NCBI RefSeq assembly: GCF_000384115.1
Contig: NZ_KB913029.1
Location: 1,336,907 to 1,400,906 of the forward strand
Direction of reading: 5' to 3'
From: Sporichthya polymorpha DSM 43042
GTDB lineage: Bacteria; Actinomycetota; Actinomycetes; Sporichthyales; Sporichthyaceae
DNA: 64,000 nt
Under the pieces are notes generated by a model. The model ran no database searches. It was given only the letters and a program-made list of their open reading frames with translations, and was not told where the DNA came from. Numbering within the stretch: the stretch's first letter is position 1; each line of letters opens with the position of its first letter. The translations under genes were made by a program, and so were the position numbers. Below, one piece after another: positions 45,636 to 63,589 of this stretch.

Positions 45636-45731
45636 CCCACCGTACTATGACCTACGTCCCAGTCAAGGGCCTGCGCCACTGACTGGCCACCTGCGCTCAA
45701 TTGACAGCGCACGGGCGCCGACCTAGCGTTC

Positions 45732-45746: not shown

Positions 45747-45766
45747 CCGCAGGAGGGGGGCCCGTC

Positions 45767-47601: not shown

Positions 47602-47610
47602 GTCGGCCGG

Positions 47611-48435: not shown

Positions 48436-50003
48436 GAGGAACTTCCCCCGGCGATGCCTCGGTCGGCGCCCCAGTAGCGGGCGCGGACCTCGCGACGCAG
48501 CACCTTGCCGTACGCGGACGTCGGCAGTTCGTCGACGAAGTCGACGTTCTTCGGCTTTTTGTAACCGGCCATGAACCCGGCGCAGTAGTCGATGAGTTCC
48601 TTCGCCGTCGGCTCGGTACCGGGCTCGGGCACGACCACCGCGTGCACCGCCTCGCCCCAGTAGTCGTCAGGGATCCCGACCACACACACATGAGCAACGG
48701 ACGGATGGGTGATGAGGACCTCCTCCACCTCCCGCGGATACACGTTGTTCCCGCCCGAGATGATCATGTCCTTCGTGCGGTCGAGAAGGAACAGGTAGCC
48801 GCCCTCGTCGAACTGGCCCACGTCCCCGGTGTGGAGCCAGCCGCCGCGCAGGGTCTCCGCGGTGGCCTCCGGGTTGTCCCAGTACCCGGCCATCACGATG
48901 TCGCCGCGCACCACGATCTCGCCCGAGACGCCGGGCGGGCACTCGAGATCGTTCTCGTCGAAGACCTTGACCTCGACGTCGGTCCGGACGAATCCCGCCG
49001 ACGCCAGCCGGGGGTCGTCGTTCTTGACCAGCTCGAGGTGCTCCTCCCGCGGAAGCACCGTCGCGGTGATCGGGCATTCTCCCTGGCCGTAGATCTGCAC
49101 CCATACCGGGCCGAAGGTTTCCACCGCCTGCCTGAGATGCTCGACGTAGATCGGGGCGCCGCCGTAACAGGTTGCCTGCCAGGTCGAGAGGTCGTACTTT
49201 CCCGGGACGAATTCCTCCAGGCACTTCACGATCTGTGTCGGTGCCATGAAGGCGATGTGGGTGACGCCGAGCCTCTCGACGTCCGCGAAGGTCGAGTCGG
49301 GCGAGAAGCTGGCGGACGTCGAGATAGCGTTGTTCGCTCCGCGGGCGACCGCCGGCAGCGCCACGATGCCCGAGCCGTGCGAGAGCGGGGCCACGTGCAG
49401 CAGCACGTCGTCGGAGGTGATGTTGTAGCAGTCGGCCAGGTAGTTCATGACGCAGACGCGGACCACGCGGTGGGTCCACGTGGCGCCCTTGGGCTTCCCG
49501 GTGGTGCCGGACGTGTAGAACAGCCAGCACGCGTCGGTGTCGGTGACGTCGACCGGGGCGGCCAGCGCTCGCGGACTGGTCGTCAGTTCCGTGTAGGGCG
49601 TGAGCGCTTCGGAGCATTCGACGCCGAAGCGCAGCTCAACTCCGCCGAACTGGGTCCAGTGCTGGTTCAGCGGCGCCTCGAACTCGCCGGTGTGGATGAG
49701 CGCCCGCGCACCTGAGTTATGGACGAGGTACGCCATCTCGAGCGGATGGAGCCGCGCGTTCATCGGAACGACGACCAGACCAGCCGCGAAGCATCCAAAG
49801 ATGACCTCGAGGATCTCCGGGCGGTTCGACATCGCGAACGCGACCCGGTCACCCTTCTTCAGCCCACGGGCGAGCAGCCCACCCCCGATCGAGAGCGCGC
49901 GGTCGGCGAACTGACGGTACGTCGTCACCTCGTCGCCGTACTGCAGCGCCGGTCGCTCCGGGAAGCGCACGGCGGACTTTGTGAGGAAGGTCGCGGCGTT
50001 CAT
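48432..50003 (-). CDS. Acyl-CoA synthetase (AMP-forming), FadD-like
   Basis: A 523-residue ANL ligase. The ATG at 50001-50003 overlaps the DUF35 stop (TGATG); the longer open frame is rejected. The P-loop is LFYTSGTTGKPKGATWT, the hinge is GWLHTGDVGQFDEGGYLFLL and the C-terminal Lys is in PTSAYGKVLRREVR. It supplies a CoA ester to the downstream hydratase and to the thiolase, DUF35, MaoC and dehydrogenase genes upstream in the same operon. Confidence 0.92.
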   Translation of the reverse strand: MNAATFLTKSAVRFPERPALQYGDEVTTYRQFADRALSIGGGLLARGLKKGDRVAFAMSNRPEILEVIFGCFAAGLVVVPMNARLHPLEMAYLVHNSGARALIHTGEFEAPLNQHWTQFGGVELRFGVECSEALTPYTELTTSPRALAAPVDVTDTDACWLFYTSGTTGKPKGATWTHRVVRVCVMNYLADCYNITSDDVLLHVAPLSHGSGIVALPAVARGANNAISTSASFSPDSTFADVERLGVTHIAFMAPTQIVKCLEEFVPGKYDLSTWQATCYGGAPIYVEHLRQAVETFGPVWVQIYGQGECPITATVLPREEHLELVKNDDPRLASAGFVRTDVEVKVFDENDLECPPGVSGEIVVRGDIVMAGYWDNPEATAETLRGGWLHTGDVGQFDEGGYLFLLDRTKDMIISGGNNVYPREVEEVLITHPSVAHVCVVGIPDDYWGEAVHAVVVPEPGTEPTAKELIDYCAGFMAGYKKPKNVDFVDELPTSAYGKVLRREVRARYWGADRGIAGGSSS

Positions 50004-50425
50004 CAGGCGGCGGTGAACCAGGCGGCGGCGCGCTCGGCGATCTCTCCGGCATCGGCAGGGGCGAAACGCACCCGCTGGTCGCACGCGTAGGAGTCCCAGG
50101 TCCCGTCCGGGCCCGGGTGCAGGCGGCACATAAGCTGCGGACCCTCGTCGAGCTCCACGATGCCGATGCCGTAGGGCGGGTCGACCGCGAACGAACTGGG
50201 CGGCCCCATGCGCAGGATCGTGAACGTCTGCAGCTGACCCTCACCGGAGACCTGCTGCCAGCCGAGGTTGCCACTGAAGCACGCCGGACACCGGTACTTC
50301 GGGTACATGATCAACTGCGCGCAGTCGTTGCACTTCTGCACGACCAGACGGCCCTCGGCCAACGCGGCCGCGAACGGAGCCGTCAGCTCGTCCGCGTTCT
50401 GGATATAGCCGGTGTCAACGCTCAT
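50003..50425 (-). CDS. DUF35 OB-fold protein with zinc ribbon
   Basis: A 140-residue protein. The rubredoxin-like zinc ribbon (Cys32, Cys35, Cys46, Cys49 in KCNDC and RCPAC) is followed by an OB fold (GEGQLQTFTILRMGPPSSFA, YGIGIVELDEGPQLMCRL). Such proteins bind thiolase-like aldolases, as ChsH2 does with Ltp2 in steroid side-chain removal. The gene overlaps the Cys-less thiolase gene by 4 bp, a strong sign of a complex. Confidence 0.9.
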   Translation of the reverse strand: MSVDTGYIQNADELTAPFAAALAEGRLVVQKCNDCAQLIMYPKYRCPACFSGNLGWQQVSGEGQLQTFTILRMGPPSSFAVDPPYGIGIVELDEGPQLMCRLHPGPDGTWDSYACDQRVRFAPADAGEIAERAAAWFTAA

Positions 50426-51639
50426 CGGGTGGCCCTTTCCAACATCATGATCTGCGCGTCCATGTACGAGCCGCCGGTTCCGCCGACGATGCAGCGCTGG
50501 GCGTTGGGGACCTGACGGTCGGGGCCGGCGCGGTGCAGGAGCTGGCGGATGCCCTCGATGAGGAGCGCGGTGCCGCCGCCGACACCGGTGTGGCCGGCGG
50601 AGAGCAGGCCGCCGTTGGTGTTGAGCGGGAATTCCCCACCCGGGGAGAAGCGGCCCTTGTGGAACTCACGCGCGGCCTCGCCCTTCGGTGAGATCTGCAG
50701 TCCCTCCAACGCGATGGCGAGGACCGCGGCGTAGGAGTCGTAGACCTCGCCGAGGTCGGCGTCCTCGGGCCCCCAACTCGCAGCCTCGTACGCCTCCTTC
50801 GCCGCCTCGACCCAGCCGAGGACCCCGAGATCGGCGTCCTGCCCGGCCGAGTAGTGCGATACGCACCCACCCGAACCGCCGATGCGTACCCAGGCGTCGT
50901 GCTTCTTCCGCGCCTCGGTCGCACTGGTCATCACGAATGCACCGGCGCCGTCGGCGAGGAACGGACACTCGAAGGCGTGGATGGGGTCCGAGATCATCTT
51001 CGAGTTGAGGATCTTCTCGATCGTCAACTTCTTGGAGTAGTACATGGCGTTCGGGTTCAGGTTTGCCCAGTCCCGCAGCGCGACACAGATCGCCGCCATC
51101 TCCTCGGCCGTCGACCCCGACTGATGCATGTACCGCTGCGTGATCAGGCCGCCGATGGCGTTGAACTGCAGACCGGTCGGAGCTTCCCACTCACGGGGAA
51201 TGCCGTTCACCGACAGCATGTCGATCATCGCTTGGAGGTCGGCCGAGCCCCACCGCTCCGAGTAAACGACGAGCACGTTGCGCGCCTGGCCGGAAGCGAT
51301 GAGGCCCGCGGCCATACGCGTCGCGTTGTCGGACGTCGAACCCCCGGAGTGGACCATGACCGAACTCTTGGCGCGGCCGTGCAGACCGAGCTCCTCCACG
51401 ACGCGACTGAAGATCAGGTCAGCCTGGTCCGGGATGCCATGCAGGCAGGGGATCAGCACGATCTGGTCGATGTCGGTGTGCTGCAACTGCGCGTCCGCGA
51501 TCGCCCGTGCGGAAGCCTCGACGATCTGCGCCATGAAGCCGCGCTCACGGTAGACACCGGACGGAATCTCGCCGATACCGATGAACGCGGCGTCGTTCGC
51601 GCTCCCCGGCTCGGGGTACGGCGGGGTCCACTCACTCAT
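50422..51639 (-). CDS. Thiolase-fold protein lacking nucleophilic Cys, Ltp2-like aldolase candidate
   Basis: A 405-residue thiolase-superfamily protein. Where the active Cys belongs, the sequence reads VMVHSGGSTSDNATRMAAG with no Cys. The second motif is SAGHTGVGGGTALLIEG, and a Tyr-containing segment VYDSYAAVLAIALEGL is in the place used by Ltp2. In Ltp2, Tyr residues catalyse retro-aldol cleavage with a DUF35 partner; that partner is encoded next door. The ATG at 51637-51639 overlaps the MaoC stop. Retro-aldolase is more likely than thiolase, but this is inferred. Confidence 0.85.
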   Translation of the reverse strand: MSEWTPPYPEPGSANDAAFIGIGEIPSGVYRERGFMAQIVEASARAIADAQLQHTDIDQIVLIPCLHGIPDQADLIFSRVVEELGLHGRAKSSVMVHSGGSTSDNATRMAAGLIASGQARNVLVVYSERWGSADLQAMIDMLSVNGIPREWEAPTGLQFNAIGGLITQRYMHQSGSTAEEMAAICVALRDWANLNPNAMYYSKKLTIEKILNSKMISDPIHAFECPFLADGAGAFVMTSATEARKKHDAWVRIGGSGGCVSHYSAGQDADLGVLGWVEAAKEAYEAASWGPEDADLGEVYDSYAAVLAIALEGLQISPKGEAAREFHKGRFSPGGEFPLNTNGGLLSAGHTGVGGGTALLIEGIRQLLHRAGPDRQVPNAQRCIVGGTGGSYMDAQIMMLERATR

Positions 51640-52115
51640 CAGATCTCCAGGGGCGTGCGACGGCGGGCCAACATGACCCAGTGGAAGTTCATGACCGACT
51701 CGTCCTTCTGGTTGATCACGTCGTACCCGACGTGGAGGACGCCGTACTTGGGACTCTTGTGCGGCTCGGTCTCGAGGACGGTGGCCCGCACACGCAGGGT
51801 GTCGCCCGATCGGACCGGTGCGGTGGCTCGCATTGAGCGGCACTCGATCAGCGCCTCGATGCAGTCCGAGTACCAGCCGGTCAGGGCGACGAGCCCCACC
51901 GCTATGCTGAAGGTCAGCGGCCCGTGGGCGATGCGCTCACCGAATCGCCCGGTCTCGGCCCACATCGCGTTCACGTGCAGCGGGTAGTTGTCGCCGGTCA
52001 GGCCGGCGAACAAGTTGATGTCCGCCTGGTCGACGGTGCGGCCACCGGTCAGGATTTCCTGCCCGACCGGGAAGTCCTCGAAGTAGCGCTCCTCTGGCGC
52101 CCAGGTGCTCGTCAC
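51639..52115 (-). CDS. MaoC-family hydratase
   Basis: A 158-residue hot-dog protein with FAGLTGDNYPLHVNAMWAET and ERIAHGPLTFSIAVGLVA, carrying the Asp/His dyad. The start is GTG and overlaps the dehydrogenase stop (GTGA, 52112-52115). It should hydrate the enoyl-CoA before retro-aldol cleavage by the next gene product. Confidence 0.9.
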   Translation of the reverse strand: MTSTWAPEERYFEDFPVGQEILTGGRTVDQADINLFAGLTGDNYPLHVNAMWAETGRFGERIAHGPLTFSIAVGLVALTGWYSDCIEALIECRSMRATAPVRSGDTLRVRATVLETEPHKSPKYGVLHVGYDVINQKDESVMNFHWVMLARRRTPLEI

Positions 52116-53260
52116 CGCGGGTCACTCAGACCCATGTGCCGGGCGATGACCGTCTTCTGGATCTCGTTGGCGCCGCCACCGACCATGCCGTGCTTGGCCT
52201 CGCGGAAGTAGCGCTCCATGTCGTACTCCGGGAGCTGGGCATAACCGCCGTAGGCCTGCATCCCGTTCGTCGCGATCCGGAAGAACGTCTCGGCGGCGAA
52301 CACCTTGGCCATCGAGACCTCCTTCGAGGCCTTCTCGCCGCGTAGCATCTTCGTGGCGGCGTTGTAAACCAGCAGCCGCGCGGCCGTCAGTGCCGTCTCG
52401 TCCTCCGCCATGCGGTGCTTGAGGACCTGGAGGCTCGACAGCGGACGACCGAAGGCGATGCGGTCCTTCGTGTAGGCGATCGTGTCGTCGAGCGCGGTCC
52501 GTGCGTTGCCGACGTAGGAAGCGGCGAGGCCGAGACGCTCGTAGTCGAGGTGCTCGCCGATGTACTCCCAGCCCTTGCCGATCTCACCGATCACGTTCGA
52601 GTCGGGAACCCGGACGTCCGTCAAGAAGATCTCGGTGGTGCCAAGGCTCCGGCGAACCATCGTCGGCATCTTGCGGATGTCGAGACCCTCGGCGGTGTTG
52701 GGCATGAGGAACGTGCTGAGGCCCGCGTGCCGTTCCGGCCCGGTCCGCGCCAGCATGACGATCCAGGCGCCGGGAAGGTGCGCACCGGAGCACCAGGTCT
52801 TGTTGCCGTTGAGGACCCAGTCTCGTCCGTCGTGGACCGCCTTGGTGCTGACGTTGGCGGCATCGGACCCGGCCTGCGGTTCGGAGATCGAGATCGAAAA
52901 GCGGCGCTCCCCCTTGAGGAAGGCCGGGATGTGCTCGTCCTTCTGCTCTTGGGTCCCGTGGTAGACGACGTTGCTGATCGTGAACATCGACGTCATCAGA
53001 CAGGCCGCAGTGTCGAGGCTGTACTTGGCGATGGCCTCACAGAAGATCGCGTACATGACCGGGTCCGCGGCGACGCCACCGAGTTCCTCGGGCACCAGCA
53101 GTCCCAGCCACCCGTTGTCGGCGCACTTCCGGTAGAGCTCGTCGGGGAACTCTCGGTCCTGGTCGTGCTCTCGCGTGTACTCGCGCCCCACCTCCTTTTC
53201 CATGAAGCGGTGCAGCGTGTCCTTCCAGGCCAGCTGGTCCTCGGTGTGCCGGAAGTCCAC
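52112..53260 (-). CDS. Acyl-CoA dehydrogenase
   Basis: A 382-residue FAD enzyme: FSISISEPQAGSDAANVSTKA for FAD/substrate, the NKTWCSGAHLPGAW beta domain and the C-terminal GMQAYGGYAQLPEYDMERYF with VGGGANEIQKTVIARH (Glu in the usual C-terminal base region). It is the first gene of the minus-strand operon. A degenerate CGAAC/GTTCG-type site lies about 50 bp upstream. Confidence 0.93.
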   Translation of the reverse strand: MDFRHTEDQLAWKDTLHRFMEKEVGREYTREHDQDREFPDELYRKCADNGWLGLLVPEELGGVAADPVMYAIFCEAIAKYSLDTAACLMTSMFTISNVVYHGTQEQKDEHIPAFLKGERRFSISISEPQAGSDAANVSTKAVHDGRDWVLNGNKTWCSGAHLPGAWIVMLARTGPERHAGLSTFLMPNTAEGLDIRKMPTMVRRSLGTTEIFLTDVRVPDSNVIGEIGKGWEYIGEHLDYERLGLAASYVGNARTALDDTIAYTKDRIAFGRPLSSLQVLKHRMAEDETALTAARLLVYNAATKMLRGEKASKEVSMAKVFAAETFFRIATNGMQAYGGYAQLPEYDMERYFREAKHGMVGGGANEIQKTVIARHMGLSDPR

Positions 53261-53307
53261 GGCGAACTCCTTCGCGAGAGCGGGGGCGACTTGCGATCAA
53301 CCCTAGA

Positions 53308-53321
53308 CAATCGTTCGTTCG
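53308..53321. promoter_or_regulatory. Degenerate member of the CGAAC-N4-GTTCG family
   Basis: CAATCGTTCGTTCG keeps the right half and 3 of 5 bases of the left half. It lies between the divergent acyl-CoA dehydrogenase (53260) and oxocamphor-hydrolase-like (53389) genes. Confidence 0.35.
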
Positions 53322-53388
53322 AGCGGAAGAGTAGCGGACAACACATCTCCAGCCGCTTGTGTGCCATCTTCCGGAAGGAACTCTTGCC

Positions 53389-54174
53389 GTGACGCGCATC
53401 GCCCCGCAGTTCTCTGACTATCAGGACAAGTACGCGAACGTTGCGTTCGAGCGGAACGACGGCATCCTCGAGATGACGCTCCATACGGAGGGCAAGCCGC
53501 TCGTCTGGAGTGCGACCTCCCACGACGAGATCGCCTACGCGTTCGGGGACGTCGCCAACGACCCGGACAACAAGGTCGTCATCGTGACCGGGGCCGGCGA
53601 CGCCTGGTGCCCCGAGATCGATTTCAGTTCGTTCAACCTGGCGACGGCGGCGGCGTGGGCCGAGATCATTTACGAGGGCCAGCGCCTGATCAACAACATG
53701 CTCGCCATTCAGGTGCCGGTCATCACCGCCGTGAACGGCCCGGTGCTCAACCACCCGGAGCTGCCGGTCCTCGGCGACATCGTCCTCGCCTCGGAGAACG
53801 CGACCTTCTCCGACTCGCCCCACTTCGCCTCGGGCATCGTTCCCGGCGACGGCGCGCACATCGTCTGGACTCACTTGTTGGGCCCCAACCGGGGGCGCTA
53901 CTTCCTGCTGACCGGACAGACGCTCGACGCCCAGCAAGCGCTGGATTACGGCGTCGTCAGCGAGGTGCTGCCGGCCGACCAGCTGCTCCCCCGCGCCCGC
54001 GAGCACGCTGCGAACATCGCGGCGAAGACGCCGATTGCGCGCCGGTACGCCAGGGCTGTCGTCACTCGCGAGTGGAAGCGGCTCATGGAGGCCAACCTCG
54101 GCTTCGGCCTGGCACACGAGGCGCTCGGTGTGCTCGACCTGATGGACGTGATGAAGGCGCAAGCCGAGAGTTGA
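53389..54174 (+). CDS. camK: 6-oxocamphor hydrolase-like beta-diketone hydrolase
   Basis: A 261-residue crotonase-fold enzyme that cleaves a C-C bond in cyclic beta-diketones (retro-Claisen). From a GTG after AAGGAA, it aligns without gaps to the remembered Rhodococcus 6-oxocamphor hydrolase, with all residues of that active site at the same numbers: Trp40 (KPLVW), His122 (NHPEL), His145 (SPHFASG), Asp154 (PGDGAH) and Glu244 (LAHEAL). Ordinary enoyl-CoA hydratases lack this set. The substrate is probably a bicyclic or cyclic diketone. The exact ketone and the camK name are inferred from homology. Confidence 0.85.
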
Positions 54175-54188
54175 TCTGAGTCCGATTC

Positions 54189-54226
54189 ATCGGAGGGACG
54201 TGGGCGACGGCTCGCGTCCCTCCGAT
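54189..54226. terminator. Bidirectional terminator between convergent genes
   Basis: Perfect 12-bp stem ATCGGAGGGACG (54189-54200) / CGTCCCTCCGAT (54215-54226) with a 14-base loop, between the ends of the hydrolase (+) and SMP-30 (-) genes. Confidence 0.75.
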
Positions 54227-54231
54227 CGCGC

Positions 54232-55194
54232 TCAGCGCCAGTGATGCAGCGGGAGCCCGGCGACCGGGCTGCGCAGCGAATGCACCGCCGAGTTTCCGAG
54301 GCCGCCGAGGTAGATGGTCTTCAGATCCGGCCCCCCGAAGGCGAGGCTGGACAGGTTGGCCACCCTCGAGCCGCGGCTCCGGGCGATCTGATCGAAGGTC
54401 AGAGTCCCGCGGGCGTAGGACTCAATCGCCTCGGACCCACCGGGGCCGAGGTCCTCGAAGAGGACCTTCCAGCTCAGATCCGGCGTTACCCGGATCAGGC
54501 GGTTGGTGATGACGCTGGTGACCCAAAGCGCGCCCTCGCTGTCGAAGGCGAGGCCGTCCGGGAAGGTGTCCTTCGAAAACTCGATCCGCGTTGGTTCGGA
54601 CAGGCCGCCGTCATCCGCGACGACATACCGGGTCGTGCGACACGCGAAGGTCTCGTTGACGAAAAGGTAACGGCCATCGGGCGAGAGCCGGAGCTCGTTG
54701 GTCCAGTTCAACCCTTCCGCCGCGACGCTGACCTTGCCGTCCTGTACGAGGAGGATCTGACCACTTCGCTCGTCGGCGGTGTAGTGATCGTGCGCACGTG
54801 TTCGGGCGCTGATGGTGATCCAGGCGCGTTCGCCGTCCAGCAGCACGAAATTCGCGTGCGGTACGCGGTCACCGTCGAGCTCAGTGGCGAACGGGCGCGG
54901 GTCGCCGGCGGGGCCAACGCGCCAGACCCCTCCACCCCGGCCCAGGTTGGCGAACAGGAAGTCGCCGCCGGCCGTCAACGCGATGCCGTTCGGCCGGAAT
55001 CCCTGCCCGATCAGGTCTGCCTCGACAGCCGGAACCGTGGTCCCGTCGGGGGCGATGCGCGCGATGCCCACCGTCCAGTCGCCGGTGTAGAGCGATCCGT
55101 CGGGGGCAGCCAGCACACACTCGGGCCGGTTCAGACCGCTGCCGACTTGTGCCAGGTCCGCGGGCCGGAACGGTCCGATCTCGGTGAGTGTCAC
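54232..55194 (-). CDS. SMP-30/gluconolactonase-family lactonase
   Basis: A 320-residue six-bladed beta-propeller hydrolase. Metal-ligand regions typical of the family are visible: GLNRPECVLAAPDGSLYTGD (Glu), FRPNGIALTAGGDFLFANLG (Asn), WTNELRLSPDGRYLFVNET (Asn) and DTFPDGLAFDSEGALWVTS (Asp). It opens lactones. The GTG start overlaps the SDR stop (GTGA, 55191-55194). It fits hydrolysis of the lactone made by the nearby Baeyer-Villiger enzyme. Confidence 0.88.
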   Translation of the reverse strand: MTLTEIGPFRPADLAQVGSGLNRPECVLAAPDGSLYTGDWTVGIARIAPDGTTVPAVEADLIGQGFRPNGIALTAGGDFLFANLGRGGGVWRVGPAGDPRPFATELDGDRVPHANFVLLDGERAWITISARTRAHDHYTADERSGQILLVQDGKVSVAAEGLNWTNELRLSPDGRYLFVNETFACRTTRYVVADDGGLSEPTRIEFSKDTFPDGLAFDSEGALWVTSVITNRLIRVTPDLSWKVLFEDLGPGGSEAIESYARGTLTFDQIARSRGSRVANLSSLAFGGPDLKTIYLGGLGNSAVHSLRSPVAGLPLHHWR

Positions 55195-55931
55195 AAAGCT
55201 AGGTAGCCGCCGTCGACCGGGATCGTGACCCCGGTGACGTACGACGACATGTCGGAGGCCAGGAAGACGGCCGGGCCGGCGATCTCGTCGGTTTCGCCCA
55301 ACCGGCCGAGCGGCACGCGCTCGAGGTACTTCGCGTGTCCCGCACCGTCGGCGACCAGGCCACTGAACATCCGTCCCGGCGCCAGTCCGTTTGCTCGGCC
55401 ACCCGTGGGACCAAGGGTTCGCGCGAAGTACTGGACCAGCGAACGGATCCCCGCCTTCGTCGCGCCGTAGGCGGCGCTGGACCGCGGCGCGGCAAAGCCG
55501 GCGATCGAGGACAGGAAGATCATGCTCGCCCCGGGGTGCTTCATGGCCTCCAGCACGGAGACGCTCATGTCCCACTGCCCGGTGAGGTTGACGCTCACAA
55601 CCTGGTCCCACACCTGCATCTGGTCGGGATCGCCGGGCCGGCTGCGGGGCGAGATTCCGGCGTTGTTGACCAGCACGTCGATCTTGCCGTGCTGGTCGGA
55701 GATGCGGGCGCCGAAGGCCATCACCTTCTCCCGGTCCGCGATGTCGAGCGTCTCGGCGGCGGCCGAGCCGCCGGACGCCGCGATCTTCTCAGCCATCTGC
55801 TCCGCCGCGTCGGCGTGCCGGTCGACGACCAGGACGTGCGCGCCCTCCAACGCGAGCGCGGTTGAGATGGCCGCGCCCAGGCCGCCACCGCCGCCGGTCA
55901 CGACCGCCGTCTTGCCCGACAGCAGGTCCAT
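55191..55931 (-). CDS. SDR-family oxidoreductase
   Basis: A 246-residue dehydrogenase. TGGGGGLG is at 13-20, NNAGISPRSR and the catalytic Ser in IFLSSIAGFA follow, then YGATKAG (Tyr, Lys); it ends PVDGGYLAL. I take the ATG at 55929-55931 with GGAGAAGGAGC upstream. It likely oxidises a cyclic alcohol to the ketone used by the monooxygenase encoded just upstream. Confidence 0.92.
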   Translation of the reverse strand: MDLLSGKTAVVTGGGGGLGAAISTALALEGAHVLVVDRHADAAEQMAEKIAASGGSAAAETLDIADREKVMAFGARISDQHGKIDVLVNNAGISPRSRPGDPDQMQVWDQVVSVNLTGQWDMSVSVLEAMKHPGASMIFLSSIAGFAAPRSSAAYGATKAGIRSLVQYFARTLGPTGGRANGLAPGRMFSGLVADGAGHAKYLERVPLGRLGETDEIAGPAVFLASDMSSYVTGVTIPVDGGYLAL

Positions 55932-55978
55932 TGCGTGCTCCTTCTCCAGCGAAACCGTGCACCGGGGCGAGGGCCCGG

Positions 55979-57616
55979 TCAGGACATGACGTAGCCCGCG
56001 TAGTCGCGCTCGCGCACGTCGTCGCAGTAGGCCCGGAACCGGGCGTTCCCGCCGACGAACAGCAGCACCTCGCGCTTGTCCCGGCCCTCGATGTTCTGGT
56101 TCACCCCGGTGAACCACGAGTTGGTCTGGCCCAGCAGCAGCTTGTTCTGCAGCTTGGCCGCATAGGCCGTGAAGGCTTCCGCCGCTTCGACCTCGGCCTC
56201 GATCCGCTCGACACCGTTCTTCTTCGCGTAGATCATCATCTCGCTCAGCCAGTCGATGGCCAGGGCCGAACAGCGCGGAATGTTGCAGAAGGTGGCGCCG
56301 CTCTGCGGACCGACCAGCATGAAGAAGTTGGGGAACCCGGGGCACTGCATGCCCATGTAGGTCTTGATGCCCTTGTCCCACTCCTCCTTCAGCGATTTCC
56401 CCTCCGTGCCGCGGATGTCGATGTGGTTCCACGCGCCCTTGATCGCGTCGAATCCGGTCGCGTAGATGATGACGTCGAATTCGTGCAGACCTTCGGTGGT
56501 TTCGATGCCCTCGGGGGTGATGCGGGTGATCGACGTCGCGTGCAGGTCGACGACCGAAACGTTGTCTTGGTTGTAGACCTCGTAGTAGTTGGTCTCGAGC
56601 GGGACCCGCTTCATCCCGAAGCCGTGGTCCTTGGGGATGAGGATTTCGGCGATTCGCGGGTCCTTGACGCGCTGGCGGATCTTGTTCGCCACGAATTCCG
56701 ACACGTACTTGTTCGCGTCGGGGTCCGACAGGACGTCCTGATACGAGCCGAGCCACAGGGAGAAGCCCGGGCCCTGATAGAGCTCCTCCAGCTTGGCGTC
56801 GCGCTCTTCCTTCGGCACGTCGAACAAATTCTGCGGGATGAACTCGTGGCGGTAGCCAGCGAGAGAGTTGTCGCACTTGGCAATGAACTCGTGGTAATTC
56901 GCCTTGATGGAGTCCATCCGCTCCTGGGTCATCGGCCCGTTGCCGAGCGGGGTGCACCAGTTCGGTTCGCGCACGAAGACCGTCAGGTGACCAGCGACTT
57001 TGGCCATCTCCTGGATCACCTGCACGCCGGTTGAGCCCACGCCGATCACCGCGACGCGCTTGCCGGTGAAGTCCAAGGGCGCCGGGCCGAAGCCGTTCGG
57101 GTCACGGGGCCACCGGGCCGTGTGGATGCTCTCGCCCTTGAACGTGTGGATTCCCGGGATCTTCGGCATCTGTGGCCACGACAGGGGGCCCAGCGCCGAG
57201 AACACGAAGCGCGCGGTCACCGGAGCGCGGTCCGGCTGGACGAAGCCCAGCTTCCACAGCTTGTTCTTCTCGTCCCAGATCGCGCTGTCGACCTTGGCGT
57301 TGAAGAGGTAGTCCTTGCGGATGTCCATGATCTCGGCAGCGCGGTGGAGGTAGGCCAGGACGTCGGGCTGCGCGGCGAAGCGCTCCGGCCAGTTCCACTC
57401 CTGCATGAGCTGGTCGTTCCAGAAGTAGCCGTAAATCTCGCTCTCGGAGTCGGTGCGACAGCCCGGGTAGCGGTTGTGGTGCCAAACGCCCCCAATGTCG
57501 TCGGAGCCTTCGATCCCCAACACGCGGTAGCCCATCTCACGCAACCGGTAGGCCTGGTAGAGGCCACTGATACCCGCGCCGATCACGACTGCGTCGAAGT
57601 CTGGTTCCTGCGTCAT
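55979..57616 (-). CDS. Baeyer-Villiger monooxygenase (type I flavoprotein)
   Basis: A 545-residue FAD/NADPH monooxygenase that converts ketones to esters or lactones. FAD-binding GAGISG is at 13-18, NADPH-binding GVGSTG at 192-197, and the Baeyer-Villiger fingerprint FKGESIHTARWP at 159-170. RYPGCRTDSESEIYGYFW also matches cyclohexanone-type enzymes. It is the first gene of a three-gene operon with the SDR and lactonase, a classical alcohol-ketone-lactone-hydroxyacid set. A CGAAC-N4-GTTCG palindrome lies 80 bp upstream. Confidence 0.94.
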   Translation of the reverse strand: MTQEPDFDAVVIGAGISGLYQAYRLREMGYRVLGIEGSDDIGGVWHHNRYPGCRTDSESEIYGYFWNDQLMQEWNWPERFAAQPDVLAYLHRAAEIMDIRKDYLFNAKVDSAIWDEKNKLWKLGFVQPDRAPVTARFVFSALGPLSWPQMPKIPGIHTFKGESIHTARWPRDPNGFGPAPLDFTGKRVAVIGVGSTGVQVIQEMAKVAGHLTVFVREPNWCTPLGNGPMTQERMDSIKANYHEFIAKCDNSLAGYRHEFIPQNLFDVPKEERDAKLEELYQGPGFSLWLGSYQDVLSDPDANKYVSEFVANKIRQRVKDPRIAEILIPKDHGFGMKRVPLETNYYEVYNQDNVSVVDLHATSITRITPEGIETTEGLHEFDVIIYATGFDAIKGAWNHIDIRGTEGKSLKEEWDKGIKTYMGMQCPGFPNFFMLVGPQSGATFCNIPRCSALAIDWLSEMMIYAKKNGVERIEAEVEAAEAFTAYAAKLQNKLLLGQTNSWFTGVNQNIEGRDKREVLLFVGGNARFRAYCDDVRERDYAGYVMS

Positions 57617-57695
57617 GCGTACTTCCCCTTCAATGCGTCGGCGCCGGTATCACGAACGGCGCGCGCTCATCCCTTCGGCGCTCCCGGGAACCCGA

Positions 57696-57709
57696 CGAAC
57701 GAACGTTCG
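57696..57709. promoter_or_regulatory. CGAAC-N4-GTTCG palindrome upstream of the BVMO operon
   Basis: CGAACGAACGTTCG contains the 12-bp perfect palindrome ACGAACGTTCGT (57699-57710). It is 80 bp before the monooxygenase start, within the 294-bp divergent promoter region (57617-57910). Confidence 0.65.
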
Positions 57710-57842
57710 TATCAGCGTCGCATCGGCATCGCCCACGGTCAAGCCCGTGCCGGGGACGGACGAGACGGAATTTGCCGAACGCGACGACATTCACGCTTGC
57801 CACCCGCCAACTCCGCCGCAACCGCGCAGCTTCCCGGACCCC

Positions 57843-57873
57843 TTGACACCCGCACCCAACGAACGTACGTTCG
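57843..57873 (+). promoter_or_regulatory. Promoter with overlapping operator for the SDR-P450 operon
   Basis: TTGACA (57843-57848), 17 bp, then TACGTT (57866-57871). The -10 lies inside the perfect 14-bp palindrome CGAACGTACGTTCG (57860-57873), the same CGAAC-N4-GTTCG pattern. A repressor here would directly block RNA polymerase. Confidence 0.65.
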
Positions 57874-57910
57874 CCGCAGTGACCGACCCCACAGAGAGCG
57901 GAGCGAACCC

Positions 57911-58651
57911 ATGTCCGGACGCCTAGACGGCAAGGTTTCGATCATCACGGGCGCCGGGTCAGGAATCGGCGCGGCGACGGCCCGGCGCTTTCACGCCGAA
58001 GGCGCCAAGGTTGTGCTCGCGGACATCTCCGGAGCGCAGGAGGCCCTGGCCAAGGAGCTCGGCGACGGTGCCCTTGCCGTTCACGCCGATGTGTCCAAGG
58101 GCGAGAGCGTCCAGGCGATGGTGCAGTCCGCCGTCGAGACCTTCGGCGGCTTGCACGTCCTCTACAACAACGCCGGCATCGACGGCGAGATTGCCGCTGT
58201 GGCCGACATGTCCGAGGAGGGCTGGGACCAGGTCCAGGCCATCAACCTGCGCGGCGTCTTCCTCGGTATCAAGTACGCGGTTCCGGCGATGATCGCCTCC
58301 GGCGGTGGCTCGATCATCAACACCGCCTCGATGGCGGCAACGGTTGCCTTTCCCCAGATGGCCAGCTACTGCGCGGCCAAGGGCGGCGTCGTGATGCTGA
58401 CCAAGACGGCGGCCGCGGAGTACGCCGCCCAGAAGATCCGGGTGAACTCGATCAGCCCGGGCACCATCCAGACGGCGATCACCGAGCACCTTCCGCAGGA
58501 CATGATCACCGCGATCATCGCCCGCAACCCGGTCGGCCGGATCGCCGACGCCGGCGAGGTCGCGAGCCTCGCGTTGTTCCTGGCCAGTGACGAGTCCGCG
58601 TTCATCACCGGCTCCGACTACCTGATCGACGGCGGCTACACGCTGCTCTAG
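57911..58651 (+). CDS. SDR-family oxidoreductase
   Basis: A 246-residue dehydrogenase: TGAGSGIG near 14, NNAGIDGE, catalytic Ser in NTASMAATV, and SYCAAKGG (Tyr, Lys). It ends LIDGGYTLL. It opens the plus-strand operon with P450 and ferredoxin, and probably oxidises the alcohol made by that P450, as 6-hydroxycamphor dehydrogenase does in camphor breakdown. Confidence 0.92.
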   Translation: MSGRLDGKVSIITGAGSGIGAATARRFHAEGAKVVLADISGAQEALAKELGDGALAVHADVSKGESVQAMVQSAVETFGGLHVLYNNAGIDGEIAAVADMSEEGWDQVQAINLRGVFLGIKYAVPAMIASGGGSIINTASMAATVAFPQMASYCAAKGGVVMLTKTAAAEYAAQKIRVNSISPGTIQTAITEHLPQDMITAIIARNPVGRIADAGEVASLALFLASDESAFITGSDYLIDGGYTLL

Positions 58652-58697
58652 TCCCTCTTTCGCACGAGCTCGCCCGGCCCCAGGAGGTACACCCGCA

Positions 58698-59948
58698 ATG
58701 GGCTTCAAAGCACAGGAAACCGAGTTCCACCCACCGACGCAGGCCGACATCGAGGAATCGATCGCCAAGTACGGCCGCGACATCTACAACGACTTCGACC
58801 TCGACGCGCCCGTCTTCAACGAGAAGCACGTTGAGATCATCGACGACCTGGTCAACAAGTGCCCGATCGCCCATTCGAAGGTGGGCGAGGGCTACTACCT
58901 GGTCTCCCAGAACAAGCTCGTGCGCGAGGTCGGTCAGAACTGGCGCACGTTCTCCGCGGCCAAGGGATACATGCCGAACCGCCCGGACGGGTTGCCGTAC
59001 CTGTACCCCGAGGAGTCGGACCCGCCGCTGCACACCGCGTGGCGGCAGTCACTGAACCCCTTCATGGGTCCCTCGACCATCGCGCCGTACGAGGCCACCA
59101 TCCGGGCCGACGCGAACGCCCTGATCGACCGCTTCATCGACAAGGGCGAGTGCGAGTTCGTCTCCGAGTTCGCGGCGCTCCTCCCGGGGTGGGCGTTCTT
59201 CAAGAACGTGCTCGGGGTGCCGATCGACGACCTCGACCGCCTTGTCGACGGCGTCGAGGACGGGACCTTCAACCCCGACCCCGAGGTCCGAGCCGCCAAG
59301 TTCGGCTACGTCTTCCAGTACCTCGGCGACTACTTGGAGAAGCGCTCCAAGGAGCCGCCGCGCGGCGACATGGTCGACATGATCGCCGCGGGCGTGACCT
59401 ACGAGGACGGCACCGAGTCAGCCTGGGCCGACCGCGTCTCGGTCCTGGTCGACATGACCTTCGGCGGTATCGCGACCACGACGTACGTCATGGCTTCCGG
59501 TATGCACTGGCTGGCGGAGAACCCCGACGCCCGCAAGCTGCTGATCGAGGATCCGGACACCTACATGCCGCGGGCGATCGAGGAGTTCGCCCGCGTCTTC
59601 GCCCCCGTCGTCGCCCTCGGGCGCACGTGCACCAAGGACGTCGAACTCGGCGGGCGGCAGCTCAAAGCCGGCGACTTCGTGATGATGGTCTACGCCGGTG
59701 CCTCGCGCGACCCCCGTGTCGTCGAGGATCCCCAGCGCATCGACATCACCCGGGAGACTGTGCTGCACTCCGCCTTCGGCGTCGGCATCCACCGCTGCAT
59801 CGGGTCGAACCTCGCGCGCCTCGAGCTGCGCACGACGTTCGAGGAGTTCCTGCGCCGCATCCCGGACTACAAGGTCAAGCCGGGCGGTGAGCCGACCTAC
59901 GTCTCCGGGTTCCTGCGCTCGATGCGTTCCGTCACGTTCGAGTGGTGA
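58698..59948 (+). CDS. Cytochrome P450 lacking the helix-I acidic residue
   Basis: A 416-residue haem monooxygenase. ExxR is EEFAR near 295-299; the haem loop FGVGIHRCIG has Cys367. In helix I the usual AGxDT/AGxET reads FGGIATTT (255-262): Thr is kept, but the acid is Ala261-like, so proton delivery must differ. The gene is preceded by CAGGAGG and followed, with GTGA overlap, by its ferredoxin gene. It probably hydroxylates the cyclic substrate. Confidence 0.93.
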   Translation: MGFKAQETEFHPPTQADIEESIAKYGRDIYNDFDLDAPVFNEKHVEIIDDLVNKCPIAHSKVGEGYYLVSQNKLVREVGQNWRTFSAAKGYMPNRPDGLPYLYPEESDPPLHTAWRQSLNPFMGPSTIAPYEATIRADANALIDRFIDKGECEFVSEFAALLPGWAFFKNVLGVPIDDLDRLVDGVEDGTFNPDPEVRAAKFGYVFQYLGDYLEKRSKEPPRGDMVDMIAAGVTYEDGTESAWADRVSVLVDMTFGGIATTTYVMASGMHWLAENPDARKLLIEDPDTYMPRAIEEFARVFAPVVALGRTCTKDVELGGRQLKAGDFVMMVYAGASRDPRVVEDPQRIDITRETVLHSAFGVGIHRCIGSNLARLELRTTFEEFLRRIPDYKVKPGGEPTYVSGFLRSMRSVTFEW

Positions 59949-60169
59949 GTGCGGTGAAGGCACACATCGCCATCGGCATCGACGGCGGTCAGCAAGGCTG
60001 CACCGGGCACGGCCGTTGCGCGGTCATGGCCGGTGACGTGTACGAACTCGACGACAATGGCTACAACATTGCGCGCGGCAGCTACGTCGAGGTTCCGCCA
60101 GGTCTCGAGGAGTCCGCGCGCTACGGGGCCCGGGTCTGCCCCGAGCGGGTCATCACCATCGAGGAATAG
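59945..60169 (+). CDS. P450-associated ferredoxin, 3Fe-4S type
   Basis: A 74-residue ferredoxin. Cys19 and Cys25 are in GCTGHGRC and Cys65 is in ARVCPERV. His takes the middle position of the C-x2-H-x2-C(n)CP motif, a variant known in ferredoxins that serve actinobacterial P450s. GTG at 59945 overlaps the P450 stop; GTG at 59942 or 59954 are alternatives. It passes electrons to the P450. No ferredoxin reductase is encoded nearby. Confidence 0.9.
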   Translation: MSAVKAHIAIGIDGGQQGCTGHGRCAVMAGDVYELDDNGYNIARGSYVEVPPGLEESARYGARVCPERVITIEE

Positions 60170-60182
60170 ACACCAGGGTCGC

Positions 60183-60218
60183 CAGTGGGCCGGTCGGAGA
60201 CTTCCGGCCGGCCCACTG
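60183..60218. terminator. Hairpin between ferredoxin and SDR genes
   Basis: Perfect 11-bp stem CAGTGGGCCGG (60183-60193) / CCGGCCCACTG (60208-60218) with a 14-base loop, 14 bp after the ferredoxin stop. There is no U-tract. It could end or attenuate transcription. Confidence 0.5.
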
Positions 60219-60241
60219 CCGTATTTCGAGAGGAGCACGTC

Positions 60242-61075
60242 GTGGGACGGCTGGACAACAAGGTTGCGTTCATCACCGGTGCTGCCCGTGGCCAGGGCCG
60301 CGCGCACGCCATTCGAATGGCCGAGGAGGGCGCGGACATCATCGGGGTCGACATCTGCGAGCCCATCGGCACGGTCCCCTACGAGCTCGGGACGATGGAG
60401 GAGCTCGAGGAGACCGCCGCCACGGTGGAGAAGCTGGACCGGCGCATGGTGATCGCGAAGGCGGACGTCCGAGATCTGAGCTCGCTGCAGGCCGCGGTCG
60501 AACACGGCGTCGCGGAACTCGGTCGGCTCGACATCGTCAGCTCGAACGCCGGCATCTGGTCCGCCGGTCTGTTCACGGATATGGACGAGCAGACCTACCG
60601 CGACATGATCGACGTGCAGATGCACGGGGCGTACTACACCTGCAAGGCGACGGTTCCGAAGCTGATCGAACAGGGTTCAGGTGGCTCGATCGTCCTCACC
60701 AGCTCGGTCGCGGGACTCAAGGGGTTCCCCAACCAGGTGCACTACAACATGGCCAAGCACGCCGTCGTCGGCCTGATGCGGACGCTGGCGAACGAGCTGG
60801 CCCCGCACTTTATCCGCGTCAACAGCGTGCACCCCAGCTCGACGTTCACCAAGATGATCGACAACGCGGCGATCCACTCGGCCTTCGCCCCCGGCGTCGA
60901 GAACCCGAAGCTCGAGGACTTCGGCGACACCTTCACCGCGATGAATCTGCTCCCGATCCCCTGGATGGAGGCCGTCGACATCTCCAACGCCGTCCTATGG
61001 CTCGCCTCCGACGAGGCCCGCTACGTCACCGGAGTTACGCTTCCGGTCGACGCGGGCTTCATGGCCAAGCTCTGA
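60242..61075 (+). CDS. Mycofactocin-coupled SDR-family oxidoreductase
   Basis: A 277-residue dehydrogenase. It has TGAARGQGRAHAIRMAEEG near the N-terminus, the insert GTVPYELGTMEELEETAATV and SSNAGIWSAG, then catalytic Ser in VLTSSVAG and YNMAKHA. The GRxH and the insert match the mycofactocin-coupled SDR group (TIGR03971-like), which holds NAD(H) tightly and passes electrons to mycofactocin. The GTG start follows GAGAGGAGC. This fits mftD at the left edge of the window. Confidence 0.88.
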   Translation: MGRLDNKVAFITGAARGQGRAHAIRMAEEGADIIGVDICEPIGTVPYELGTMEELEETAATVEKLDRRMVIAKADVRDLSSLQAAVEHGVAELGRLDIVSSNAGIWSAGLFTDMDEQTYRDMIDVQMHGAYYTCKATVPKLIEQGSGGSIVLTSSVAGLKGFPNQVHYNMAKHAVVGLMRTLANELAPHFIRVNSVHPSSTFTKMIDNAAIHSAFAPGVENPKLEDFGDTFTAMNLLPIPWMEAVDISNAVLWLASDEARYVTGVTLPVDAGFMAKL

Positions 61076-61085
61076 CCGCAGCAGC

Positions 61086-62042
61086 GTGGAGCTGCGCACC
61101 ACCGATCCCGACGCCGCGGCGGCGGCCCTGGCTGACGAGTACACCGACGTCACGATCCAGGCGCCGCGCGGACGTCGCTTCGTCATGGAGTTGGACGCGT
61201 TCCCCTTGCCGCAGTTGCGGTACGGCCAGCTCATCTTTTCGGAGTCGCGAGTGCTGACCCGCGCGTACCCCAGCTACAACCTGTGCGTCCCGGTCGGCGG
61301 CTCCCTGCTCGCGACTGCTGACGACGTCGACGACGTCGTCAGCGGAACCGACCTGGTGATGATCTCGCCGGGCAGCCGCATCGACGCCCGGTATCCGCTC
61401 GACGGCGTCGTTCTGCGAACGGTGCAGTTCGACGCCGATCTCGCGCTGACGGAGCTGTCCGCCCTGCTCGGGCGCTGCGTGGCGACTCCGCCGCGATTTC
61501 GCTTTGCGATGCGGCCGGCCGCATCCGCCTCGATTCGCCGCGCCGTGGCCATCCTGAACGACGAGCTTCGGGCCGCCACGCCCATCGCCGGCGAGCCGGT
61601 GCTGATCGATCGACTGAGCCGCGTGATCATCTCCGCTCTACTGCTCGGCCAGACGCACACGTACTCGGCAGAACTGCAGGGCCGACCCTACGTCGAGGGT
61701 CCCCGCACGATCCGGGCGCTGGTTTCCCGCTTGGAAGCCGATCCCCTAGCCTTCGCCACCGTCGGGGACCTTGCGGCGGCGGCCGGTCTGAGCGTCCGCG
61801 CCCTCCAGGACGGCTTCCGGCGTCACCTCGGTGTCTCCCCGATGCGCCATCTGCGCCAAGCTCGGTTGGACCGGGCGCACCAGGCTCTCCTGGCTGCAGA
61901 TCCCAGGGCCGTTACGGCGACGGCGATTGCGCACGCGTGGGGCTTCGCCCACTACGGGCGGTTCGCCGGCGAGTACCGCGCACGGTTCGGCGTAACTCCG
62001 ACTCAATCGCTTCGCCGAACCCGAGCGGACGAGCATCGTTAA
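61086..62042 (+). CDS. AraC-family transcriptional regulator
   Basis: A 318-residue protein from a GTG 10 bp after the SDR stop. An N-terminal ligand-binding cupin-like domain (AraC_binding_2 type: RRFVMELDAFPLPQLRYGQL, YNLCVPVGGSLL) is followed by the C-terminal double HTH at about 220-312 (VGDLAAAAGLSVRALQDGFR, IAHAWGFAHYGRFAGEYRA). It probably controls the adjacent catabolic operons in response to a pathway compound. Confidence 0.9.
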   Translation: MELRTTDPDAAAAALADEYTDVTIQAPRGRRFVMELDAFPLPQLRYGQLIFSESRVLTRAYPSYNLCVPVGGSLLATADDVDDVVSGTDLVMISPGSRIDARYPLDGVVLRTVQFDADLALTELSALLGRCVATPPRFRFAMRPAASASIRRAVAILNDELRAATPIAGEPVLIDRLSRVIISALLLGQTHTYSAELQGRPYVEGPRTIRALVSRLEADPLAFATVGDLAAAAGLSVRALQDGFRRHLGVSPMRHLRQARLDRAHQALLAADPRAVTATAIAHAWGFAHYGRFAGEYRARFGVTPTQSLRRTRADEHR

Positions 62043-62104: not shown

Positions 62105-63589
62105 ATGAAGGCCCTCACCGTCGTCCCACTGGCGTGCGCCCTCGCGCTCGCTCCGCTGGCGGTCGCGACCGGATACCCCGCCAGTGCCGACTCCACGGCA
62201 ATCGCGGATTCCGCGGTGCCCAGAGCGACCTGCGGCCCGGGGAGCTCGCCGGAGACCGGCCTCCAAGGTCAGGTGCCACTGAGGGACCGGCAGAGCGGCC
62301 GCAGCCAGCAGGGGTACTGGTGCAACCTGGAGCTGCTGGGACAGCACCAAGGTGAAGGCACCACCTGGGTGAACCCGCAGTACAAACACTGCGCCTACAA
62401 CGCCACCGCGTTTGCCGGCATCCCGACCAAGAAGTCCCAAGGCGTGCAGGTGATCGACGTCGGCAACCCGCGCAAGCCCCGACTGACCGCCAATCTCACG
62501 AGCCCGGCGATGTTGGCCGGGACGTGGGAGACGCTCAAGGTCAACGAGGAGCGCGGATTGCTCGCCGGGGTAAGCGTCGGCCCAGTCGTCGGCGCGCTGT
62601 CCTTCGACGTCTACGACATCTCGACCGACTGCACGCGCCCGAAGCTGCTGAACTCCTTCTCATCCGCGGACTTCACGCTTCCCGCGTCGACCATCAATCA
62701 CGAGGGCCAGTGGTCCCCCGACGGCAGGACCTACTGGTCCTCCTCTCTCGCCGGCGGCGGACTCACCGCCATCGACGTCAGCGACCCGACCAAGCCGCGG
62801 ATCGCCGGGGTGGGCACGGTCGGGGTTGCGAACCACGGCTTCGAGTTGAGCGAGGACGGCAACCGGCTGTACCTGAGCACCGCGTTCGGAGCCGGCGTCA
62901 TCATCCTCGACGTCAGCGAGGTGCAGGCGCGCAACCCGGTGCCGGTGATCCGCCAGCTCGGCAGCGTCTTCTGGGGCGGCCCGGCGTCGGTCGGCCAGCA
63001 CACCATCCCGGTGACGTGGAGCGGCAAGCCGTACCTGATCGCCGTCGACGAGTTCGCCGGCGAGGGCGTACACATCATCGACATAAGCGACGAGACCCGG
63101 CCTCGCATCGTCCGCCAACTGCAGCTCGAGATTCAGCAGCCGCAGAACGCGGCGGTGAGCGCCGAGGACACCAAGGGCAACGGGCTGTTCGGATACGACG
63201 CGCACTACTGCACCGTCGACCGCAGAACAGATCCGACCGCGCTGGCCTGCGGAATGATGCAGTCCGGCGTCCGCGTCTTCGACGTCCGTAACCCCCTGAC
63301 CCCCCGCGAGATCGCCTACTACAACCCACCGGCGCAGGTCGGACGGAACGCCGATCTCTCCGGTTCGGAGCACGCGACCTACAACTTCATCTCGCAGAGC
63401 TCCAACGTCTCCGACATCCGCGACGCCGGCCCCTCCGTGCTCCTCGGAGCCAGCCCGTACGCCAATCTCACTGCCGACTGGTGCAGCTCGCCCCCTCGGT
63501 TCGTGGGCAAGGACCAGCTCTGGGTGAGCTGCCAGGACAACGGCTTCCTCGCACTCAAGTTCACCAACAAGGCTTACCGACGTCCATGA
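62105..63589 (+). CDS. Exported LVIVD-repeat beta-propeller-like protein
   Basis: A 494-residue exported protein. The signal peptide (MKALTVVPLACALALAPLAV, cleavage near ASA-DST) precedes repeats of about 45-60 residues ending in short LVIVD-type strands: GVQVIDVGNPRKPRL, GLTAIDVSDPTKPRI, GVIILDVSEVQARNP, GVHIIDISDETRPRI and GVRVFDVRNPLTPRE. Such propellers occur in surface proteins. The product overlaps the DUF305 gene by 4 bp, a frequent pairing. Function is unknown; metal or redox-related roles have been proposed for the partner family. Confidence 0.87.
   Translation: MKALTVVPLACALALAPLAVATGYPASADSTAIADSAVPRATCGPGSSPETGLQGQVPLRDRQSGRSQQGYWCNLELLGQHQGEGTTWVNPQYKHCAYNATAFAGIPTKKSQGVQVIDVGNPRKPRLTANLTSPAMLAGTWETLKVNEERGLLAGVSVGPVVGALSFDVYDISTDCTRPKLLNSFSSADFTLPASTINHEGQWSPDGRTYWSSSLAGGGLTAIDVSDPTKPRIAGVGTVGVANHGFELSEDGNRLYLSTAFGAGVIILDVSEVQARNPVPVIRQLGSVFWGGPASVGQHTIPVTWSGKPYLIAVDEFAGEGVHIIDISDETRPRIVRQLQLEIQQPQNAAVSAEDTKGNGLFGYDAHYCTVDRRTDPTALACGMMQSGVRVFDVRNPLTPREIAYYNPPAQVGRNADLSGSEHATYNFISQSSNVSDIRDAGPSVLLGASPYANLTADWCSSPPRFVGKDQLWVSCQDNGFLALKFTNKAYRRP

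Follow-up and report, generated by a model that had tools for sequence, protein, structure and literature searches.

A 6-oxocamphor hydrolase homologue in a candidate camphor-type catabolic gene cluster of Sporichthya polymorpha

The hydrolase homologue and its gene neighbourhood

The locus described here lies in a 64,000-nucleotide stretch of the Sporichthya polymorpha DSM 43042 genome (contig NZ_KB913029.1; this whole stretch is called the window and all positions are in its numbering), where a gene cluster runs from 42617 to 62042, from an acyl-CoA synthetase gene through to an AraC-type regulator gene. Within it, the open reading frame at 53389–54174, which starts with GTG shortly after a GGAAGGA sequence, encodes a PF00378 protein of the crotonase superfamily. 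This protein is a homologue of Rhodococcus 6-oxocamphor hydrolase (OCH), a model enzyme in biocatalysis; the homology is well supported and the activity is predicted from it.

In the PDB sequence search, the top match of the protein is OCH itself (1o8u, E = 6.4e-109), with residues 2–251 aligned on residues 2–251 without a gap and 160 of 250 positions identical (64%). The second relative is Anabaena beta-diketone hydrolase (ABDH, E = 7.8e-68), and the remaining crotonases follow at E = 9.7e-24 and weaker. A first-pass annotation, made from the letters alone, had placed Trp40, His122, His145, Asp154 and Glu244 at the positions they occupy in Rhodococcus OCH, and both pairwise and multiple alignments bear this out. 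All five residues are present in 14 of 14 close relatives, the full set occurs in none of the seven own-genome crotonase paralogues that were aligned (of 47 other own-genome matches), and ABDH keeps four of the five, with Phe replacing Trp40. An own-genome search with the homologue gave 48 places at E ≤ 0.001 including itself, none of the others above 36% identity. The five residues are not exclusive to OCH, as the distant homologues L083 and L084 carry all of them and L082 carries three. The OCH-like genes with the intact set (L083:9007-9771 and L084:8971-9750) lie near xanthine-dehydrogenase-type molybdenum hydroxylase genes, with an SMP-30 gene adjoining the one in L083, and their products probably serve a different beta-diketone hydrolase pathway.

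The comparison by sequence and predicted structure that the annotation had proposed as a check came out in favour of OCH. An AlphaFold model of the homologue, built with 8 sequences, has a mean pLDDT of 80.6 and retrieves 1szo and 1o8u first in a structure search (TM 0.87–0.90 by query length), though it is weak at residues 152–156 and 238–248 and so leaves the placement of D154 and E244 unconfirmed. In a tree of 25 sequences, from which the own paralogues L002 and L006 were omitted, 1o8u clusters with 10 actinomycete sequences (support 0.997), and a 16-member OCH group stands apart from ABDH, three distant homologues and five own paralogues (support 0.914). L017 and L018, at 28–31% identity, were excluded from the OCH comparison.

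The neighbours named by the annotation, namely a P450 with ferredoxin, short-chain dehydrogenases/reductases (SDRs), a Baeyer–Villiger enzyme, an SMP-30 protein and a CoA-dependent gene set, were all found by Pfam and domain scans. The cluster genes are as follows.

42617–44416, minus strand: acyl-CoA synthetase (AMP-binding), PF00501; relatives near OCH
44413–45609, minus: CoA-transferase family III, PF02515; relatives near OCH
45701–46996, plus: SCP2/BbsB-type thiolase, likely a true thiolase; top PDB match benzoylsuccinyl-CoA thiolase 7pxp, with the NACAASS Cys and GHPIG His present
46993–47601, plus: TetR regulator, candidate reader of the promoter palindromes; PF00440, PF17932
47611–48435, minus: second crotonase with a non-canonical active site, candidate C–C hydrolase; PF00378, residues in 10/10 aligned
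48432–50129 (true start probably near 50006), minus: acyl-CoA synthetase, PF00501
50003–50425, minus: DUF35 protein (zinc ribbon and OB fold, ChsH2-type), likely aldolase partner; PF12172, PF01796
50422–51636, minus: thiolase-fold protein, likely Ltp2/Sal-like side-chain aldolase; HSGGSTSD (no nucleophilic Cys), YDSY
51639–52115, minus: MaoC-type enoyl-CoA hydratase, PF01575
52112–53260, minus: acyl-CoA dehydrogenase (ACAD); PF00441, PF02770, PF02771
53389–54174, plus: OCH homologue (predicted beta-diketone hydrolase, crotonase superfamily); PDB match, five residues, fold and tree
54232–55200, minus: SMP-30/gluconolactonase-like protein, candidate lactonase; PF08450, adjoins the Baeyer–Villiger gene in 6 loci
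55191–55931, minus: SDR1, travels with the Baeyer–Villiger gene; PF13561
55979–57616, minus: type I Baeyer–Villiger monooxygenase (BVMO), OTEMO-like; 3uov at E = 1.4e-175, fingerprint FKGESIHTARWP
57911–58651, plus: SDR2, beside the P450, candidate hydroxyketone dehydrogenase; PF13561, 81% in a Rhodococcus plasmid
58698–59948, plus: cytochrome P450, PF00067
59942–60169, plus: single-cluster ferredoxin with three Cys; PF13459 and sequence
60185–61075, plus: SDR3, mycofactocin-coupled, possible terpene-alcohol dehydrogenase; TIGR03971 at 395 bits (cut-off 300)
61086–62042, plus: AraC-type regulator; PF12833, PF14525

For the BVMO, the closest PDB relative is OTEMO (3uov, 588 bits), with 256 of 538 positions identical (48%); phenylacetone monooxygenase reaches 458 bits. 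The motif FxGxxxHxxxW, which we take to be the fingerprint of type I BVMOs, is matched by FKGESIHTARWP, and two GxGxxG motifs are present as GAGISG and GVGSTG. The SMP-30 protein carries an SGL domain (PF08450, 63.6 bits), from which a lactonase role is predicted. In the case of the P450, CYP125MRCA (180 bits) outscores the best P450cam chain (164 bits), so that close kinship with CYP101 was not found; its nearest solved relatives are all distant, and its substrate is not deducible from them.

The thiolase-fold protein at 50422–51636 is close by sequence to thiolase-named structures, e.g. 4u4e. Gly replaces the nucleophilic Cys of thiolases in this protein and a YDSY motif is present, features shared by all 10 sequences aligned. 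The DUF35 neighbour at 50003–50425 matches the ChsH2 domains. According to the available text of PMC12329534, the corresponding motif is YDHF in Ltp2, YDCY in Sal and HDCF in SCP2 thiolases, and Sal likewise has Gly for the nucleophilic Cys. The lack of this Cys, the Tyr of the YD motif and the DUF35 neighbour are all features of the Ltp2/Sal type, and the ‘thiolase’ is more likely an Ltp2/Sal-like aldolase. The third motif residue is neither the His of Ltp2 nor the Cys of Sal, but Ser in all 10 aligned sequences; because YDSY differs from both aldolase motifs, we assign the protein to neither. Together with DUF35, MaoC and ACAD, the putative aldolase would suit the removal of acetyl from side chains in which the beta carbon is branched or part of a ring. 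The second crotonase, present in all 10 loci having the aldolase set, has Asp, Tyr and Asn in place of Glu144, Glu164 and the PGAGG-loop alanine of enoyl-CoA hydratase (positions that we take as the reference for reading this protein), again invariant in 10 of 10 aligned. We conjecture that its substrate is a diketone or an alpha-quaternary beta-ketoacyl-CoA, in which it would hydrolyse a C–C bond.

Around the cluster, a ferredoxin reductase gene lies just outside the window (64194–65471 in window numbering), a mycofactocin radical-SAM maturase scores above cut-off in the same genome (G000:C1:862137-863150), and the protein predicted at 62105–63589, beyond the AraC gene, has no Pfam match at E 1e-6. 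Conjugation-type genes adjoin the cluster on the other side (32053–40803), including a TraD/TrwB-like coupling protein (32053–33474) and a 1600-aa TrwC relaxase fused to helicase and primase domains (36001–40803), with GC of 0.71–0.74 versus 0.65–0.69 in the cluster. With these genes adjacent and the Rhodococcus counterpart on a plasmid, the setting of the cluster is possibly mobile.

Conservation, linkage and shared promoter palindromes

OCH homologues of at least 53% identity were examined in 15 genomes or records: the window, G001, G003, G004, G299, G259, G180, G206, G393 (L011, Nocardioides sp. Root1257), G394 (L012), G395 (L013), G396 (L014), G397 (L015), G398 (L016) and plasmid pR8L1 of Rhodococcus sp. 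008 (L019). The OCH cluster genes recur in Actinomycetes and Proteobacteria, two phyla. A BVMO of at least 69% is found in seven of the 15, comprising the window, G003 (88%), G393 (83%), L019 (82%), G396 (78%), G395 (76%) and G397 (69%), with the order BVMO-SDR1-SMP-30 intact in six of these seven; counting only the 13 genomes searched whole, there are five, and G398 has a BVMO of 47%. P450 orthologues of at least 52% occur in nine of 13 OCH genomes searched, in addition to the window and L019. Ten of the 15 (the window, G001, G003, G004, G299, G259, G180, L011, L012 and L019) have genes for the thiolase-fold protein and DUF35 close to OCH, and several contigs of the remaining five loci are short. 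On pR8L1, relatives of at least 50% exist for 15 of the 18 window proteins compared (SDR3 at 49.8 rounded to 50); DUF35 is at 57%, and MaoC is at 67%.

Sampling across genomes at large, OCH was detected at E ≤ 1e-60 in eight of 393 genomes from the class. The BVMO was detected at E ≤ 1e-150 in four, of which two have at least 69% and are both among the eight OCH-positive genomes, and the other two (43 and 47%) are not OCH-positive; as each genome had only a few candidates scored in these searches and a single family accounts for both genomes that carry the two genes, the overlap is support, not proof. No loci were added by sampling the class of the Rhizobiales carrier (OCH in one of 337) or the order of the Nocardioides carrier (one of 391), the single hit being the carrier itself in both cases. 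Among plasmid records, 37 have an OCH match; only the one at 69% was counted as OCH, and the other 36 are below 60%. Three of the 36 (L082–L084) have no BVMO annotated nearby, one having a P450 and one an SMP-30 gene.

Four promoters of the cluster carry an operator-like palindrome. Allowing up to one mismatch, CGAACGNNCGTTYG is found at these promoters and nowhere else in the window:

45622–45635, no strand assigned: between the divergent CoA-transferase and thiolase genes; CGAACGNNCGTTYG with 1 mismatch, same promoter in G003 and G004
53308–53321, no strand assigned: imperfect palindrome in the divergent ACAD/OCH promoter; 1 mismatch on one strand
57696–57709, no strand assigned: upstream of BVMO; exact match, also upstream of BVMO in G003
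57860–57873, no strand assigned: upstream of SDR2-P450-ferredoxin; exact match, also upstream of SDR2 in G003, G004, G001 and G299

In the ACAD/OCH intergenic region, ACAATCGTTYGTT, to which CGAACGNNCGTTYG is related, is present in six of six aligned loci. Scanning 20 contig stretches, we found palindromes at matching promoters in six relatives: G003, G004 (both contigs), G001 contig 370, L019, G393 and G299 contig 43. Only off-target matches were found in G180 and G206, with additional off-target matches in G003, G004 and L019 (two), and the same scan gave none in G001 contig 182, G395, G396 (both contigs), L012, L013, L016, G397, G299 contig 73 and G259 (both contigs). The shared palindrome suggests a single regulon that would include the OCH, BVMO and P450 promoters.

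A proposed sequential pathway and its alternatives

The cluster is real and coherent as a single pathway. From the gene identities, conservation, linkage and promoter motif we infer the reactions, their order and the substrate, and we consider it reasonably probable that the cluster is a regulon for breaking down a camphor-type bicyclic monoterpenoid ketone, whose two rings are opened consecutively in one route. The P450 and ferredoxin would hydroxylate the ketone and SDR2 would oxidise the product to a bicyclic beta-diketone, possibly after SDR3 has oxidised an alcohol such as borneol. Retro-Claisen hydrolysis of the beta-diketone by OCH would give a cyclopentanone-acetic acid of the campholonic type, to be activated by a CoA ligase. 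The OTEMO-like BVMO would then insert oxygen beside the ring ketone to form a lactone, the SMP-30 protein would hydrolyse this lactone, and SDR1 would oxidise the alcohol released. ACAD and MaoC would lead to a tertiary beta-hydroxyacyl-CoA, from which the Ltp2/Sal-like aldolase with DUF35 would cleave off acetyl-CoA, leaving the thiolase, CoA-transferase and second crotonase to complete the breakdown. For camphor, the predicted intermediates are campholonyl-CoA, the lactone, a hydroxy acid, a keto acid and a tertiary hydroxyacyl-CoA, and the ten carbons would yield three acetyl-CoA and isobutyryl-CoA, the same end products as reported for P. putida.

The reading of the locus as one for catabolism of a camphor-like terpenoid, already put forward by the first-pass annotation, is well supported by OCH homology and the neighbouring genes; its proposal of two separate ring-cleavage routes gives way to one route with consecutive openings as the likelier arrangement, the BVMO being nearest to OTEMO, which acts after the first ring. 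The two ring cuts fit consecutively because OCH leaves a monocyclic keto acid, the kind that OTEMO works on; we take the OCH product from 6-oxocamphor to be such an acid, of the campholonic type, and the title of PDB entry 1szo, as listed, refers to a natural product with a name starting (2S,4S)-alpha-. The side chain of this expected product is also of the kind that the aldolase set would suit. In support of one route, the co-occurrence of BVMO and OCH repeats across classes, and both genes have the promoter motif. The annotation had further called the presence of both ring-opening enzymes in one locus unusual, which agrees with genomes at large (OCH in eight and this BVMO in two of 393), but seven of the 15 OCH carriers examined have the pair.

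Several observations weigh against the sequential route. Eight of the 13 OCH genomes searched whole do not have a BVMO of at least 69% (among them G398, with its 47%), and the near relatives G001 and G004 retain the P450, SDR2, OCH and aldolase set without this BVMO in whole-genome searches; both are draft assemblies, in which 9 and 12 kb past SDR2 could be read with no BVMO there. In these genomes the BVMO is either not obligatory or another substrate is used. On pR8L1, the ligase corresponding to 48432–50129 is only 36% identical and no AraC relative was found. The P450 is only distantly related to P450cam (~160 bits), the ring position of the ketone in OTEMO's own substrate differs from that in campholonic acid, and the PDB sequence search with the SMP-30 protein gave no close solved relative, mostly designed Pizza propellers. 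An SMP-30 gene also stands beside the OCH-like gene in L083, where no BVMO is listed. Nor is a lactonase proven necessary, since the OTEMO lactone of P. putida opens spontaneously according to the available text of PMC6352141; the saturated lactone expected from the window BVMO, unlike the OTEMO lactone, might not. In the case of the palindromes, CGAACGNNCGTTYG has seven strand matches in the window against 1.83 expected, a count reached in one of 100 shuffles, but, with the pattern derived from these same sites, the count is no independent test, and the scan of the relatives is a better one. Looser versions of the pattern give only modestly more matches than expected by chance (25 versus 14.4 and 36 versus 25.7), and the proteobacterial loci that were scanned had no site.

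There are alternative explanations for this set of genes. One possible arrangement, which we regard as distinctly unlikely, is that of parallel routes, with OCH hydrolysing the diketone, the BVMO lactonising the bicyclic ketone and SMP-30 opening that lactone. All genes are adjacent and type I BVMOs can be promiscuous. However, type II BVMOs such as the diketocamphane monooxygenases are luciferase-like, and no domain of this type was found among the cluster proteins scanned with Pfam. In the text available from PMC6352141, the diketocamphane monooxygenases that act on the first ring in P. putida are type II BVMOs, and OTEMO, the closest characterised BVMO, takes the ring-opened CoA ester. Alternatively, the side chain could be removed first: acting on campholonyl-CoA with its second ring still closed, the aldolase set would take off acetate and leave a cyclic 1,3-dione for the second crotonase or OCH to hydrolyse, and the BVMO would be an accessory for another ketone. 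In its favour, the aldolase set and second crotonase are retained in G001, G004, G299, G259 and G180, where this BVMO was not found, and the active site of the second crotonase is conserved and not of the hydratase type. We nevertheless consider it unlikely, as the BVMO shares the promoter motif and, where present, is as conserved as OCH (69–88%). A related and rather doubtful line is oxygen-sparing: both rings would be hydrolysed, by OCH and then by the second crotonase acting on an aldolase-freed cyclopentane-1,3-dione, with the OTEMO-like block as a plug-in alternative for the second ring. If true, the camphor-type pathway encoded here would make two retro-Claisen cuts, and its YDSY protein would represent a third kind of aldolase with a thiolase fold.

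The same chemistry could also serve another substrate, such as fenchone, a borneol derivative, a bicyclic sesquiterpenoid or another bicyclic ketone. We give this close to an even chance, and it is compatible with the sequential route, which leaves the substrate unfixed. The distance of the P450 from P450cam, the hint of an alcohol in the mycofactocin-coupled SDR3 and the 36% of positions that differ between the homologue and Rhodococcus OCH all point this way, whereas in the tree it is the OCH of a camphor degrader that groups with these sequences. Highly improbable, in our view, is a pathway unrelated to terpenoids, in which the homologue would be an ordinary enoyl-CoA hydratase and the genes around it a general island for degrading steroids or acyl-CoAs. 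ACAD, MaoC, DUF35 and the aldolase do resemble steroid side-chain genes, but the OCH homologue shares no more than 36% identity with any other own-genome crotonase match and retains the OCH residues.

Comparison with known systems

The camphor breakdown route concerned is best known for its first steps. In the open-licence literature we found no paper assigning OCH-pathway genes past the first ring-opened acid; subscription papers lay outside this scope, so that such absence is unproven. Nothing relevant was found in PMC10891995 either. The cluster and its relatives offer a candidate gene for each later step, including a second-ring BVMO and a likely side-chain aldolase, making the missing half of the OCH pathway directly testable.

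Compared with Rhodococcus OCH (1o8u and 1szo, structures that we take to come from strain NCIMB 9784), the window protein is alike in its 64% identity, five active-site residues and fold, with 36% of residues differing. The putative aldolase shares with the steroid aldolases Ltp2-ChsH2 DUF35 and Sal-Shy a Cys-less thiolase fold, the Tyr of the YD motif and a DUF35 neighbour; it differs in having YDSY rather than YDHF or YDCY, and in that DUF35 and MaoC are separate proteins in the window. With the camphor pathway of the P. putida CAM plasmid the cluster shares a logic of P450, dehydrogenase, CoA ligase and type I BVMO, the P450s being only distantly related. Both the window BVMO and OTEMO (CamG of P. 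putida, 3uov) are of type I, which makes the window enzyme a candidate for the second ring. As far as the available text of PMC4097962 and PMC6352141 goes, OTEMO in P. putida takes as its substrate the monocyclic acid that remains once the first ring has opened, in the form of a CoA ester, and starts cleavage of the second ring. A lactonase-like gene travels with the window BVMO, a difference from OTEMO, and the first ring would be opened hydrolytically in the window cluster, where P. putida uses a diketocamphane monooxygenase. On the evidence of its genes, the cluster looks able to carry out a variant of known camphor-type breakdown, in which the first ring would be opened with water and the second with oxygen.

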